Shown here: positions 5,747 to 14,235 of the stretch, piece by piece | Layout of the letters: each line of letters opens with the position of its first letter | How positions within the stretch are numbered: position 1 is the first letter of the stretch | Source of the DNA: Anabaena lutea FACHB-196 | GTDB taxonomy: Bacteria; Cyanobacteriota; Cyanobacteriia; Cyanobacteriales; Nostocaceae | Direction of reading: 5' to 3' | Assembly: GCF_014698305.1 (NCBI RefSeq) | Contig: NZ_JACJST010000013.1 | Span: 62,001 to 126,000, forward strand | Length of the DNA: 64,000 nucleotides | Made by a program: the position numbers and the translations under genes | The notes under the pieces: generated by a model | What the model was told of the DNA's origin: nothing | The model's database searches: none | What the model saw: the letters and a program-made list of their open reading frames with translations, nothing else

Positions 5747-6097
5747 TTATTGCAATACCAACTTGACATTGGCGTTTTGCAGACCGCGCTGTTTTACTTC
5801 AGTCAAAGTCTTGTTAACGGCGTATTTTTGGTTAATAGAGTTGATCAACTCGGTTTGGTTGTGCTTCTTAGCAACGCCCCACAAGTCAGCGATAAGGTCA
5901 AAAGAACCATCACTGTTGCGAGACCAACCTAAATCGTACTCGCCTTCCAATACAGCAACGATGTCCGAACGTACACGCTGACCGTTATAACCACGAACAT
6001 CAGCTTCAGTCTTTACGCTGATACCTAAGTCGCGCAAAGAAGACTTCAGAATTTCGGCATCGGTGATTTTGGTACGCAGAGTGCTAAAGTGAGACAT
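5747..6097 (-). CDS. ycf35: DUF1257 protein Ycf35
   Basis: This 116-residue protein starts MSHFSTLRTKITDAEIL and contains SVKTEADVRGYNGQ and YDLGWSRNSDGSFDLIADLWG, the signature of DUF1257/Ycf35. The family is conserved in cyanobacteria and red-lineage plastids; its function is not established. An in-frame ATG at 6157 lacks a ribosome binding site, whereas GGAGGAAACC (6101-6110) fits the ATG at 6097. It follows ycf46 on the same strand across a gap with several hairpins, and ends before tandem terminators. Confidence 0.92.
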   Translation of the reverse strand: MSHFSTLRTKITDAEILKSSLRDLGISVKTEADVRGYNGQRVRSDIVAVLEGEYDLGWSRNSDGSFDLIADLWGVAKKHNQTELINSINQKYAVNKTLTEVKQRGLQNANVKLVLQ

Positions 6098-6155
6098 TTG
6101 GGTTTCCTCCAATGAGAAGATTGATGAGAAAAACGACAACGGTTTCTTTTCAGCC

Positions 6156-6243
6156 AAGCCGCATTGATTGGGAGCGGCTTTTTTCTTCTAAACTGTTAGC
6201 TTTGTAGCTAACCTTTCCCCCCTGACATTGCAGGAGAAAGCTT
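6156..6243. promoter_or_regulatory. Cluster of small hairpins between ycf46 and ycf35
   Basis: Three stems are visible: AAGCCGC/GCGGCTT (6156-6180), GTTAGCT/AGCTAAC with a 4-base loop (6195-6212), and CTTTC/GAAAG (about 6213-6241). Read on the plus strand, the first is followed by a T-run and resembles a terminator. On the minus strand, which carries the genes, there is no T-run. The block could be a processing or attenuation region for ycf35, or the end of an antisense transcript. Confidence 0.4.
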
Positions 6244-7755
6244 TTAAAACTCCATGCGCTGATATTCAGCGACGGAGGATGCTGCGGGTCTTGCACGCTG
6301 TCTGGCCCAGTCTCTTAAAGCTGTGACCTGTTCTTGCATCGTTCGTGACAGTGGCAAAGTAGACTTCAATGCAGCAATAATATCTAATTGGGTGAACTCC
6401 CGATCTTGGGCGAAGGCTTCATACATCGCCGCCACGATCGCTTGTTCAATTTCTGCACCAGAGAAGCCGTCAGACATTTTGGCTAGTTGTTCCAGATCAA
6501 ATCTAGCAATATCTTCCCGTCTTTTAGTCAAGTGAATGTTGAAGATATCCTGACGTTCTTCAGATGTGGGCAGATCCACAAAGAATATTTCATCAAAGCG
6601 ACCTTTCCTCAAAAACTCCCCAGGTAGGCGTTCCACGCGGTTAGCAGTCGCCATTACAAAGACTGGAGATTTCTTTTCTTGCATCCAGGTGAGGAAAGAA
6701 CCGAAAATTCTACTCGATGTCCCCCCATCAGAATCACCAGAACCGGCACTACCCGCGAAAGATTTATCCAACTCGTCGATAAACAGAATCGTGGGGGAAA
6801 TTGATTCTGCTGTCTTTAGGGCGTTCCGCAGATTTGCTTCACTTCGACCCACCATTGAGCCGTCGTATACACGCCCCATATCTAACCGCAAGATTGGTAA
6901 ACCCCATAAACGGGAGGTAGTTTTGGCAATTAGTGACTTACCACAACCGGGAACACCGAGAATCAACATTCCCTTGGGTTGAGGCAAACCATACTCTCTC
7001 GCTCTTTCTGTGAAGGCGTTAGAGCGTTGTTTGAGCCACTTTTTCAATTCTTCCAAGCCACCAATAGCATCAATGGTTTCATCTTCTTCGATGTATTCTA
7101 GGATGCCATTGCGCCGAATCAGTTGTTTCTTCTCAGATAGAACTATATCTACTTCATCTTCCGTTAGTCTTCCGGTAGTTACCTGAGCCTTACGGTATAC
7201 TTTTTCAGATTCGTCTTTAGTTAGACCTAAAGCTGCTCTGAGAAGTTTTTCTCGTGCTTCGGTTGTTAGCCGTCGGCCACGATGCTGTTCTTGGTGGTTG
7301 GTTAAAACTTTGTTCAACTCAACCATATCTGGTAGTTGGAAGTCTAGGACAACAACCTCTTTTTCTAGTTCGATGGGAACTTGTTGCATGGGAGACATCA
7401 AGATGATGTTCTTTTGCATTCCCTTGAAACTAGCGATCGCATCCCGTAGCGATCTCGTTGTTGCTGGCGCATCAATAAATGGATGTAAATCTTTAAGAAT
7501 AAATATACCGGGTTCTTTTTGGCGAATAATCCACTCAATCGCCGCTTCTGGAGAAACTGTATTATGTTGAGTTGTATTCCGGGGTTGACCATACTCAATG
7601 ATACCGTGAGTTACAGTCCAAACATATACCCGGCGTTGGGGCTTCAATAACTGTGCGATCGTGGAAATTGCTTGCTCTGCCCGCTCTTCCTCGGAGGTCA
7701 CAAGGTAGATTAAAGGGTATTGAGCTTGAATTAAAATATTGAGCTCTTCTTTCAT
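6244..7755 (-). CDS. ycf46: AAA+ ATPase Ycf46
   Basis: This 503-residue protein has an N-terminal domain (about 1-230) and a C-terminal AAA module. The module shows Walker A GVPGCGKS (267-274), Walker B ILFIDELDK (323-331), sensor 1 MATANRVERLP and the arginine-finger region LRKGRFDE. This is Ycf46, conserved in cyanobacteria and algal plastids. The Synechocystis homologue has been linked to inorganic carbon uptake; the substrate is unknown. The ribbon-helix-helix gene lies upstream and ycf35 downstream on the same strand. Confidence 0.92.
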   Translation of the reverse strand: MKEELNILIQAQYPLIYLVTSEEERAEQAISTIAQLLKPQRRVYVWTVTHGIIEYGQPRNTTQHNTVSPEAAIEWIIRQKEPGIFILKDLHPFIDAPATTRSLRDAIASFKGMQKNIILMSPMQQVPIELEKEVVVLDFQLPDMVELNKVLTNHQEQHRGRRLTTEAREKLLRAALGLTKDESEKVYRKAQVTTGRLTEDEVDIVLSEKKQLIRRNGILEYIEEDETIDAIGGLEELKKWLKQRSNAFTERAREYGLPQPKGMLILGVPGCGKSLIAKTTSRLWGLPILRLDMGRVYDGSMVGRSEANLRNALKTAESISPTILFIDELDKSFAGSAGSGDSDGGTSSRIFGSFLTWMQEKKSPVFVMATANRVERLPGEFLRKGRFDEIFFVDLPTSEERQDIFNIHLTKRREDIARFDLEQLAKMSDGFSGAEIEQAIVAAMYEAFAQDREFTQLDIIAALKSTLPLSRTMQEQVTALRDWARQRARPAASSVAEYQRMEF

Positions 7756-7844: not shown

Positions 7845-8201
7845 CTAGCAAGGAACCAATTCTTCCTCACCCTTCGGATGGGTTTCATCTTGTTCCATTT
7901 CATCCAGGGACAGATGTTCTTGACCAATTATTCCCGGTTGATTGCCTAAAGCTACTAATTCCCCATCACGTATGATTAGTGAACTTTCACAGGTAGGACA
8001 AGAATAAACCCTATGTGTTCGTCCATAGGAAGACGCTTCTACTTCTTCGACTAATTCTGAATTTGTCAGGTAGAAATTGAGGGCGCGTTCTGCAAGTTCT
8101 GACATCGGCTCCGAATCAACTGCTGATCGAATTTTCAATCTTCTGTGCAGTTCAGGCGATAGATACAAAGTAACCTTTTGCTTAGTTTGCATATAACTCA
8201 T
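7845..8201 (-). CDS. Ribbon-helix-helix-like protein with CPTC motif
   Basis: This 118-residue protein opens with QKVTLYLSPELHRRLKIRSA and SMSELAERAL-type residues (EPMSELAERALNFYL), the pattern of a ribbon-helix-helix DNA-binding or antitoxin-like fold. The second half has a single CPTC pair and an acidic tail. An alternative start is the ATG at 8192. No toxin-like partner lies beside it; the next gene on this strand is ycf46, 89 bases on. Its role is unknown; it could regulate the ycf46-ycf35 group. Confidence 0.75.
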   Translation of the reverse strand: MSYMQTKQKVTLYLSPELHRRLKIRSAVDSEPMSELAERALNFYLTNSELVEEVEASSYGRTHRVYSCPTCESSLIIRDGELVALGNQPGIIGQEHLSLDEMEQDETHPKGEEELVPC

Positions 8202-8502
8202 TAACGGTCTTACCCGGGTATGTAACTAACGTTATCGGCTTCTTGATTCCTTGTCAAGATAAAAAAACGTTTTAATGGCTATTTTGTTACATCTCTTAAT
8301 AATATTAGTTAGCAATTAGCCACCACATCATTAAACTAAGTGATTTATGTCACAATAAATCTAGTAGAGAAAACGGAGCAAAACGGAGCTAGGGTACAGG
8401 GTACAGAGGAATTTTCCCCTCTACCTCTTGGTGTTATTCAGCCCCTGCCCTCTTTCCTCTTCTTTGACTCCACTGACAGGAAATTGGGTGAAGGGTGTAT
8501 TT
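8202..8502. other. Divergent intergenic region, ribbon-helix-helix gene / lipoprotein gene
   Basis: This 301-base gap separates two divergent genes and so holds both promoters. It contains the CRP-like palindrome at 8339-8354 and a GGGTACA heptamer repeat at about 8391-8406. No coding region is convincing. Confidence 0.5.
8339..8354. promoter_or_regulatory. CRP-type (cAMP receptor protein) binding-site candidate
   Basis: AGTGATTTATGTCACA matches TGTGA-N6-TCACA at nine of ten defined positions. It lies 138 bases from the start of the ribbon-helix-helix gene and 149 bases from the lipoprotein start. Cyanobacterial CRP homologues such as AnCrpA use this consensus. Binding is inferred from sequence alone. 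Confidence 0.5.
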
Positions 8503-9024
8503 ATGTCTACTGTTGCGGTCAAAACCTGTAATTTGAGGCGAGTAATTGTGGCGCTAATCTCTGGTGTTGGCACAGCAATGATTTTCTCAAGTTGTAGTGC
8601 TACTAGCTTCCCAACCTCCAAACTGGCATGGGAGACTTACTACAATTCCCGTTATGGTTTTGAGTTTCCCTATCCCAGCAATTGGACTTCTGTCGCACCT
8701 CCAGACAATAATGATGGAGTTATCTTCGTGTCACCACAAAACCAAGATGCCCAAATTCGCGCTTGGGCAGGAAATCAATTACCAGAGTCAATTACCCAAG
8801 ATCCAAAGACCATAAAAACGATAGATGAGAATTTTCAAACTGCTCAAGGAGTCTCTGGAGTGCTGGTTGTAGAAGTGGGAGAAGAGGTAAGTTTCATGCA
8901 ATTGACCATAACTCAAGGTCAAGTGAAATATTATTGGCAAGGGAAAAGCAACAGCAAAGAATTTCGATATCACTATCAGTTGTTTTACTACATTGCCCAG
9001 CAATATAAAATTCGTAATTCGTAA
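8503..9024 (+). CDS. Putative lipoprotein, PsbP-like fold possible
   Basis: This 173-residue protein has a basic N-terminus, a hydrophobic segment and a lipobox-like FSSC (Cys31), so it is probably lipid-anchored. The mature part begins with YYNSRYGFEFPYPSNW, a pattern seen in PsbP-like extracytoplasmic proteins; that assignment is tentative. An upstream in-frame GTG/ATG extension would run through repeat sequence, so 8503 is preferred. The last residues (KIRNS) and the stop are encoded by a TTCGTAA heptamer array, so the C-terminus seems to have been rewritten by the repeat. Confidence 0.75.
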   Translation: MSTVAVKTCNLRRVIVALISGVGTAMIFSSCSATSFPTSKLAWETYYNSRYGFEFPYPSNWTSVAPPDNNDGVIFVSPQNQDAQIRAWAGNQLPESITQDPKTIKTIDENFQTAQGVSGVLVVEVGEEVSFMQLTITQGQVKYYWQGKSNSKEFRYHYQLFYYIAQQYKIRNS

Positions 9025-11658: not shown

Positions 11659-14235
11659 ATGACACTCCCTAACGCCGGTAGCGTCTTGGCAACATTAACT
11701 GAACTTACTCAAGTTAATCGCACCCACACCCTACTCAGTCGCGTCAAAGACCTCTCTGTTAACGAATTTGTTTGCTTACTTGATTTCATTACAGCTGAGT
11801 TTCAGCAATTTCTCAGAGCTATTGATCTAATCAATAATGAAGCTCTAGAAAGTATGTTGGAAAAAGTTCTAGAAGCCATTACACTCAAAATTGGTCAAAT
11901 TCTCCAAGCCGAACATACAGCCATTTTTTTAGTTGACTATGATAAGGCTCAACTATGGTCAAAAGTTCCCCAGGATAATAGCCAAAAATTCCTAGAAATA
12001 CGCACTCCCTTAAATGTGGGTATTCCTGGTCATGTTGCGACTACAGGTCAATATCTCAACATATCTGAAACCTCTACTCACCCTCTTTTTAGCCCAGAAT
12101 TAGAAAGACAAATGGGCTATAAAATCCGCAATCTTTTATGTATGCCAGTTGTGAGTAGTAAAAAGCAAACTGTAGCTGTAGTACAACTAGCAAATAAAGC
12201 TGGGAATGTTCCTTTTGATCAGGATGATGAAGAGTCATTTCGAGACTTTGCCTCTTCTATTGGCATTATCTTAGAAAGTTGTCAGTCTTTTTATGTAGCG
12301 GCTCGCAATCAGCGCGGTGCAACAGCTTTATTGCGTGCGACTCAGACATTAGGGCAAAGTTTGGATTTAGAGGTGACTTTGCAAATAGTCATGGAACAAG
12401 CCCGGATTTTAATGCAAGCAGACCGCAGTGCGCTGTTTTTGTATCGCAAGGAAATGGGGGAACTATGGACGAAGGTGGCTGCTGCTGATGGTAAAAACTT
12501 GATTGAAGTCCGTATACCTTCTAATCGCGGTATTGCTGGCTATGTGGCTTCTACTGGTCAAGCACTGAATATCCCCGAAGCTTACCAAGATCATCGCTTT
12601 GACCCAACTACAGATCAAAAGACTGGGTATGTAACTCGTAATATCTTGTGTTTACCAGTTTTTAATTCTGCTAATGAATTGATTGGGGTGACACAGTTAA
12701 TTAATAAGCAACAAGGTAGTTTTTCTACTTCTGATGAAGAATTCATGCGGGCTTTTAATATTCAGGCGGGAATTGCTTTGGAAAATGCCCGTCTATTTGA
12801 AAACGTATTGTTAGAAAGACAATATCAAAAAGATATTCTCCAGAGTTTGTCAGATGCTGTAATTTCTACAGATATGCAAGGTCAAATTGTCACTATTAAT
12901 GATGCAGCGCTGGAGTTAATTGGTTGTCCTTTGAAGGAAGCTAACAGAATTACTAATAAACTGCTGTGGAAGGAAAATTTGCTTGGTCGTAAAGTTTGGG
13001 AGGTGATGCCAATTGAAAATCTGCAAATGCGGCTGGAAGATAGTTTACAACATGGGTCTAGACATTATGTCCCAGAGCAAAGTTTGCTAGTGGGATTGTA
13101 TCAATTAGAAAATGGTGAACCTCAAAAGTCAAAACAGAAAACTCAGAAGATAATTTTGGCGGTGCGCGATCGCCATAACCCAGATATTTTTATTCCTTGG
13201 AATCAACTCCTGACTCCCCAGTCTGAGTTACTCAGTTCTAGTGTGGTGAAAGAATTAGAACGCAGCATCAATCTCACCGTCAATCCCTTGACTAATCCCG
13301 AAGGTGGAGTCAGAGGTGGTTTAGTGGTATTGGAAGACATCAGTCGGGAAAAACGCATGAAAAGCACCATGTACCGCTATCTGACACCCCGCGTAGCCGA
13401 GCAAATTATGGCGCTGGGAGAGGATACCTTAATGGTAGGTGAGCGCAAAGAAGTCACCATTTTGTTCTCTGATATCCGAGGTTATACAACACTAACGGAA
13501 AACTTGGGCGCAGCTGAGGTGGTATCCTTGCTCAATCAATATTTTGAAACAATGGTGGAGTCAGTTTTTCAATATGAAGGAACTTTAGATAAGTTTATTG
13601 GTGATGCTTTAATGGCGGTATTTGGAGCGCCCCTACCACTGACTGAAAATCATGCCTGGCGAGCAATACAGTCAGCATTGGATATGCGCCACCGATTGGA
13701 GGAATTTAACCACAGACGGATTATGCAGGCACAGCCTCAAATCCATATTGGGATTGGGATTAGTTCTGGGGAAGTAGTTTCCGGGAACATCGGTTCTCGC
13801 AAACGGATGGACTATACGGTGATTGGCGATGGGGTAAATTTGAGTTCCCGCTTGGAAGGTGTAACGAAAGAATATGGTTGTGACATTATTTTGAGCGAAT
13901 TTACTTATAATTTGTGCCGCGATCGCATTTGGGTGCGCCAGCTAGATAAAATTCGCGTCAAAGGTAAACATCAGGCGGTATATATTTACGAATTAATTGG
14001 CGATCGCTCTATTCCCCTTGATGCTAACACCGAAGAGTTTTTGTTTCATTATCATGCTGGACGCACTGCTTATTCCTCGCGAGACTTTTCTCAAGCGATC
14101 GCCAGTTTTGAAGCCGCTAAACGCATCCGACCCCTAGACCAAGCCCTGAATACCCACCTAGAACGATCCTATAATTATCAGCAAATACAACCTCCAGATT
14201 CTTGGGATGGTGTCTGGACGATGATAACTAAATAG
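11659..14235 (+). CDS. cyaB1: Class III adenylate cyclase with two GAF domains and PAS (CyaB1 type)
   Basis: This 858-residue cyclase makes cAMP from ATP. Tandem GAF domains occupy roughly 60-205 and 230-380. A PAS-like segment follows (from about 395), then the catalytic domain from about 600. The catalytic core has FSDIRGYT and DKFIGDALMA, whose Asps bind metal. The purine-specifying Lys645 and Thr720 correspond, with an offset of one, to Lys646 and Thr721 that I recall for Anabaena CyaB1. The GAF domains of CyaB1 bind cAMP and activate the enzyme. A short helical tail of TPR-like character ends the protein. The symbol rests on this match and on gene order. Confidence 0.9.
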   Translation: MTLPNAGSVLATLTELTQVNRTHTLLSRVKDLSVNEFVCLLDFITAEFQQFLRAIDLINNEALESMLEKVLEAITLKIGQILQAEHTAIFLVDYDKAQLWSKVPQDNSQKFLEIRTPLNVGIPGHVATTGQYLNISETSTHPLFSPELERQMGYKIRNLLCMPVVSSKKQTVAVVQLANKAGNVPFDQDDEESFRDFASSIGIILESCQSFYVAARNQRGATALLRATQTLGQSLDLEVTLQIVMEQARILMQADRSALFLYRKEMGELWTKVAAADGKNLIEVRIPSNRGIAGYVASTGQALNIPEAYQDHRFDPTTDQKTGYVTRNILCLPVFNSANELIGVTQLINKQQGSFSTSDEEFMRAFNIQAGIALENARLFENVLLERQYQKDILQSLSDAVISTDMQGQIVTINDAALELIGCPLKEANRITNKLLWKENLLGRKVWEVMPIENLQMRLEDSLQHGSRHYVPEQSLLVGLYQLENGEPQKSKQKTQKIILAVRDRHNPDIFIPWNQLLTPQSELLSSSVVKELERSINLTVNPLTNPEGGVRGGLVVLEDISREKRMKSTMYRYLTPRVAEQIMALGEDTLMVGERKEVTILFSDIRGYTTLTENLGAAEVVSLLNQYFETMVESVFQYEGTLDKFIGDALMAVFGAPLPLTENHAWRAIQSALDMRHRLEEFNHRRIMQAQPQIHIGIGISSGEVVSGNIGSRKRMDYTVIGDGVNLSSRLEGVTKEYGCDIILSEFTYNLCRDRIWVRQLDKIRVKGKHQAVYIYELIGDRSIPLDANTEEFLFHYHAGRTAYSSRDFSQAIASFEAAKRIRPLDQALNTHLERSYNYQQIQPPDSWDGVWTMITK

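Follow-up and report, generated by a model that had tools for sequence, protein, structure and literature searches.

The CRP-like palindrome AGTGATTTATGTCACA, at positions 8339–8354 (plus strand) of the window, i.e. the whole 64,000-nucleotide stretch of Anabaena lutea FACHB-196 DNA that was analysed, is probably a clade-specific form of a cis-element of the divergent lipoprotein gene, and the ribbon-helix-helix (RHH) gene with ycf46 and ycf35 would be driven by a promoter of its own, independent of the box. We assign this reading, which rests on sequence comparison, a probability of roughly 0.6. As a bare consensus match, the box is at or below the number expected by chance, and its apparent significance comes only from the comparison with relatives. 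CRP control of ycf46-ycf35 is attractive but weak as a reading, and attention shifts by about 120–130 bp, to the RHH promoter. This promoter next door is the more interesting feature: its conservation reaches far past the nearest families of the order, it would drive a stress operon, and its palindrome and HLR1-like repeat make the control of an slr0373-type operon directly testable. The box would then be an example of a consensus match arising from the element of a neighbouring gene.

The box and its genomic setting

The 16-mer agreed with TGTGA-N6-TCACA at nine of ten defined positions, with the N6 spacing and a single mismatch, A instead of T at 8339. The first-pass annotation had reported a CRP-type palindrome with this match and spacing between the RHH and lipoprotein genes, and the sequence confirmed it. 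The RHH gene, on the minus strand (ORF 7845–8201), is a member of the slr0373 family with 174.2 bits against NF052617, above the curated cut-off of 100. We placed its probable start at 8192 (gene 7845–8192) and not at 8201, because many relatives carry AAG where the window has the ATG of 8201. The minus strand also holds an AAA ATPase gene (6244–7755) and a DUF1257 gene (5747–6157), both assigned by family match; we take them to be Ycf46 and Ycf35, as did the first-pass annotation. The divergent lipoprotein gene (8503–9024, plus strand) is PsbP_2-like, its Pfam score of 21.9 bits lying below the curated cut-off of 27.

The adenylyl cyclase gene reported earlier 3.3 kb from the box was also found, as a gene with GAF-GAF-PAS-cyclase domain matches at 11659–14235 on the plus strand; it is presumably of the CyaB type named at that time. 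Its proximity adds little to the CRP reading, because cAMP diffuses and because a CRP orthologue (88–100% identical) was present in all 13 genomes checked, both those that have the palindrome and those that lack it.

Match numbers gave the box no weight. At most one mismatch to TGTGA-N6-TCACA was observed once in the window, against 2.21 expected, and at least one such match occurred in 85 of 100 shuffles; with up to two mismatches, 19 sites were observed against 30.5 expected. A genome-wide excess of the motif was looked for in the 6.06 Mb of the own genome and none was found, WGTGAN6TCACW giving 25 sites and the reversed-pattern control 23. Ten of the 15 sites examined among these 25 (L001–L015) were located inside ORFs of at least 80 codons.

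The promoter of the RHH gene

We fetched 80 RHH loci from named genomes and dropped L078, which had only 59 nt upstream, so that the alignment comprised the window and 79 others. The 80 rows showed a strong conserved footprint at about 8202–8303, upstream of the RHH gene, and little conservation at 8339–8354. Within the footprint, on the minus strand, the −35 TTGACA (8252–8257) was present in 80/80 rows and was separated by a 17-nt spacer from the −10 TAACGT (8229–8234), where TAnnnT was likewise found in 80/80. These hexamers suggest a transcription start near 8222. A scan of 8190–8510 under a rule of 4/6 per hexamer returned no sigma-70-type site; the −10 TAACGT scores 3/6. At the predicted start lies a candidate operator, ACATACCCGGGTAAG (8209–8223, minus strand), which contains the palindrome TACCCGGGTA (8211–8220). 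The palindrome was found in all 80 near rows, and every column of ACATACCCGGGTAAG was conserved in 80/80 except the first (78/80).

Farther upstream, at 8286–8303 on the plus strand, there is an HLR1-like (RpaB-type) direct repeat of the form KTTACAWW-N2-KTTACAWW, which matches at 13 of 16 positions in the window. Between this repeat and the −35 lies another palindrome, AAAACGTTTT (8264–8273, without strand), well conserved apart from its two central T columns, which are less so. We also observed that AAAACGTTTT and a GCCGTC-like sequence (together 8264–8279) are kept in Nostocales and changed elsewhere to GCCGTCAT...GGC-like forms.

The CRP-like box, outside the footprint and 35 bp from its end, has its centre some 124 bp upstream of the predicted RHH start. 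Among the 79 judgeable RHH loci, only one had the box in place, namely L016 from Trichormus sp. NMC-1, with an RHH protein of 97% identity; L073 also had a 9/10 match to the CRP consensus, elsewhere in the locus. The cAMP-CRP control of the ycf46-ycf35 group put forward in the first-pass annotation was rejected on this position and lack of conservation.

The conservation of the RHH promoter extended far into the phylum. A search with NF052617, counting matches over the cut-off only and so leaving out weaker RHH matches, recovered the family in 88 of 244 genomes, and we read the upstream sequences of all 60 of these that belong to other families (26 family labels in total). A perfect TACCC-type inverted repeat was present in 41 of these 60 distant rows: 30 carried TACCCGGGTA, two carried TACCTAGGTA, a two-sided change of the palindrome that leaves the symmetry intact, seven had an N3 spacer and two an N4 spacer. 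Eleven further rows had imperfect inverted repeats and eight had none by the inverted-repeat test. Among these eight are all six genomes of one family (label f8), which has lost the palindrome and carries CACTTGGGCA-like forms instead. The HLR1 consensus was matched at 14 or more of 16 positions in 68/80 near rows (2.0 per shuffled set) and in 48/60 distant rows (0.8 per shuffled set), and 20 of the 80 near rows matched it at 16/16, compared with only 13/16 in the window. The inverted repeat TTGTAA-N7-TTACAA, scored at 10 or more of 12 positions, was found in 46/60 distant rows (0.9 per shuffled set) and 38/80 near rows (2.2), and this reading of the HLR1-like site may fit the distant rows about as well.

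In the own genome, exact TACCCGGGTA occurs once; a base-composition estimate gives a few copies, and the single copy is unremarkable as a number, although it speaks against a large regulon with exact sites. When up to three mismatches to ACATACCCGGGTAAG were allowed, the own genome gave 52 sites on one strand and 24 on the other (control, 21 and 19).

The RHH protein has a nearly invariant N-terminal KQKVTLYL stretch. Its comparison with Pfam gave sub-threshold RHH matches only, a search against the PDB gave no significant match, and the AlphaFold model was poor (mean pLDDT 48.8) and was left unused. We infer that the RHH protein binds DNA. The RHH-ycf46-ycf35 group would be driven from 8202–8303, probably by RpaB at the HLR1-like repeat together with the sigma-70-type core, and TACCCGGGTA could be bound by a repressor, which may be the RHH protein. 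We propose only tentatively, at somewhat less than even odds, a fuller version in which the RHH protein would control its own operon with ycf46 through a single dedicated operator, TACCCGGGTA, at the transcription start and beneath the RpaB/HLR1 input. This operator would have been retained in many families of cyanobacteria and remade in some lineages, with intact symmetry, as TACCC-N3/4-GGGTA or TACCTAGGTA. In the available texts of the open literature on slr0373 and its neighbours, ycf46, and RpaB with HLR1, we found no account of the TACCCGGGTA palindrome or of CRP at the RHH promoter. A literature search for the letters of TACCCGGGTA beside a cyanobacterial word returned two papers, both on other bacteria to judge by their titles.

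The upstream element of the lipoprotein gene

Of 118 genomes sampled from the family, 82 contained the lipoprotein gene, and a search of the genus recovered it in five of five members. In a motif search on its upstream regions, a start-proximal motif of a Nostoc clade prevailed, so consensus scoring and then matrix scoring were used. The start-proximal motif, AATCAGTGACTTTGGCAAAATGTGTAATG, is strongly conserved about 29 nt before the lipoprotein start in L037 and its relatives.

After removal of duplicates (87 to 78 regions for the consensus count, 139 to 117 for the matrix count), AGTTATnTATnAAAC was matched at 11 or more of 13 positions in 26 of 78 upstream regions, against about one per shuffled set, and a position matrix applied to more genomes, with the 99th percentile of shuffles as threshold, passed 46 of 117; both counts lean towards the consensus and the matrix, which were built from the rows they score, and the shuffles preserve base composition only. 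The controls for AGTTATnTATnAAAC in the 78 regions gave 2/78 for the reversed consensus and 0/78 for the reverse complement. Dropping the start-proximal L031 and L045 left 44 element rows. The element was located 90–165 nt before the lipoprotein start in 39 of the 44 and at 42–63 nt in the other five.

The commonest form of the element is AGTTATnTATnAAAC, and 21 of the 44 rows read GTTA...AAAC. The outer GT and AC are mostly kept 14 bp apart, with T, G, A or C as the third base. In the window form, GTGA replaces the GTTA of this element and TCAC replaces its right end; this form differs at two positions from AGTTATTTATGTAAC of L041. The box would be a derived form of the element, and the lipoprotein gene at 8503–9024 is its likeliest owner.

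Two kinds of flanking sequence bear on the role of the element. GTGACA or ATGACA stood 14 nt before it in 12 of 44 rows, with a 17-nt spacer to TATnTA; this fixed distance favours a core-promoter role. TATnTA is, however, of poor −10 quality, and the upstream hexamer is absent in the window's clade. A TAnnnT, possibly a −10, was over-represented 36–39 nt downstream of the element (15/44 rows). With such a −10, the element would sit at about −57 to −60, like an activator site. At this distance TAGGGT (8390–8395) occurs in the window but not in L016, L198 and L199. CRP sites typically lie at about −41.5 or −61.5 relative to the start, and TAnnnT at the class II distance, 20–24 nt downstream, was found in only three of 44 rows. 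We also note that, relative to three congeners, the window's lipoprotein leader (8359–8500) has about 33 additional bases as well as short repeats (AAAACGGAGC, GGGTACA).

Within the genus, exact AGTGATTTATGTCACA was present in four of the five members, namely the own genome, G312, G329 and G284. The fifth, G338, reads TGTGATTTATGAAACA and has lost the right half, TCACA having become AAACA. Over the five, the box had 13 invariant columns out of 16, and the adjoining sequence had 21 of 37 on its upstream side and 40 of 143 on its downstream side; of the three box columns that vary, two fall in the CRP right half. G231, from another genus, carries AGTGATTGATGTCACA, a 9/10 form of the CRP consensus, two nearby genera (G074 and G303) have degenerate forms, and the element was not found in L095. 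Scored in the register of the element, the CRP match was 9/10 in the window, L016, L198, L199 and L243, 8 in L241 and L201, 7 in L202 and 4–6 in the others. In the lipoprotein tree, made of 25 chosen rows, the CRP-like forms all belonged to one nine-row clade, whose support of 91/90 is below the starred level. GTGA...TCAC was found in five of these nine rows and not in L241, L201, L202 or L095. On this distribution, the palindrome would either have arisen once and decayed several times or have arisen twice. Conservation of the site upstream of the same gene, a check named in the first-pass annotation, was seen in most of the genus and part of the clade for the lipoprotein gene and in a single close relative among the RHH loci.

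Alternative readings and known systems

In the reading that we prefer, the element behaves as the lipoprotein gene's core promoter or its closest regulator site, and in the window's clade it would have drifted to GTGA-N6-TCAC, which fits the CRP consensus by happenstance. Against this count the recurrence of the CRP form in G231 and the symmetric way in which GTTA...TAAC became GTGA...TCAC, a pattern that binding by a dimer would favour. No other observation speaks as strongly for a dimeric protein of the CRP family as this symmetric double change. In the first alternative, the box would be a functional cAMP-CRP (AnCrpA-type) site that the window's clade gained over the older element. Such a site would repress the lipoprotein gene if the element is the core promoter and activate it if the start lies about 57–60 bp downstream, where the 15 rows with a downstream TAnnnT would fit. 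The 9/10 match, the exact 16-mer in most of the genus and AGTGATTGATGTCACA in G231 are consistent with it, as are the CRP orthologues of all genomes checked, that of the own genome (at G000:C45) having RETVTR in its helix-turn-helix. Cyanobacterial CRP sites are reported to resemble TGTGAN6TCACA, and AnCrpA could bind a conventional palindrome in vitro (PMC2633013). At the orthologous place, however, the palindrome is lost in G338 and degenerate in G074 and G303, all with CRP, and the element itself was not found in L095; CRP is encoded in the genomes of L241, L201 and L202, so the palindrome did not disappear as a consequence of CRP being lost. The motif is also without genome-wide excess, and few rows have TAnnnT at the class II distance. 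The restriction to one clade weakens the CRP reading but does not by itself exclude it, because the CRP targets predicted in cyanobacteria are for the most part not shared from one species to the next (PMC2633013). We consider such a site rather unlikely. What the first-pass annotation proposed for the lipoprotein gene is thus possible: the box does overlie the upstream element of that gene, but the commonest form of the element is GTTA...AAAC and the CRP form is lost or degenerate in several relatives.

The mostly constant GT and AC, with their variable third base, could also mark the site of another dimer of the CRP/FNR family (GTn-N8-nAC, the geometry of NtcA sites) that came to recognise a different third base in the clade. 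This is improbable, since the matrix is biased towards GT and AAC to begin with, and the bases further inside are AT-rich and in most rows not symmetric (A...A). NtcA in particular was considered and rejected: its binding site is GTA-N8-TAC (PMC3898017), the window has GTG-N8-CAC, and GTA-N8-TAC occurs in none of the 44 rows. A chance product without any function would agree with match numbers at or below chance, but the place is more conserved than its flanks in the genus and overlies an element common to many genomes. Pure chance is disfavoured by that genus-level conservation, and we regard it as very improbable. A clade-specific form of the lipoprotein gene's own element remains our preferred reading.

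Compared with the cyanobacterial cAMP-CRP sites of SyCRP1 and AnCrpA, the box is similar in its 9/10 match, N6 spacing, intergenic location and the CRP orthologue in the genome. It is unlike them in that its right half is not kept through the clade, genome-wide enrichment is lacking and an older non-CRP element lies beneath it. Predicted targets of cyanobacterial CRP are seldom shared beyond close relatives (PMC2633013). The HLR1 consensus of RpaB is KTTACAWW-N2-KTTACAWW, with activation from −45 to −66 and repression from −38 to +23 (PMC13421787; for background on HLR1 and RpaB, see PMC6331805). The predicted site in the window resembles it as an N2-spaced direct repeat upstream of an slr0373-family gene, but the repeat is a 13/16 match and lies at about −64 to −81 from the predicted start, beyond the −45 to −66 range (PMC13421787).

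In Synechocystis, the slr0373 operon is reported to react to three conditions, namely blue light, high light and low inorganic carbon, and expression of slr0373 is high (PMC7496141, PMC7283877, PMC3564720). In PMC7496141, which covers the high-light response of the operon, slr0374 is called Ycf46 and the function of the operon is described as unknown. The window is similar to this stress-responsive operon of Synechocystis PCC 6803, slr0373-slr0374-slr0376, in having an NF052617 RHH gene followed by an AAA ATPase gene; the third gene here is DUF1257.
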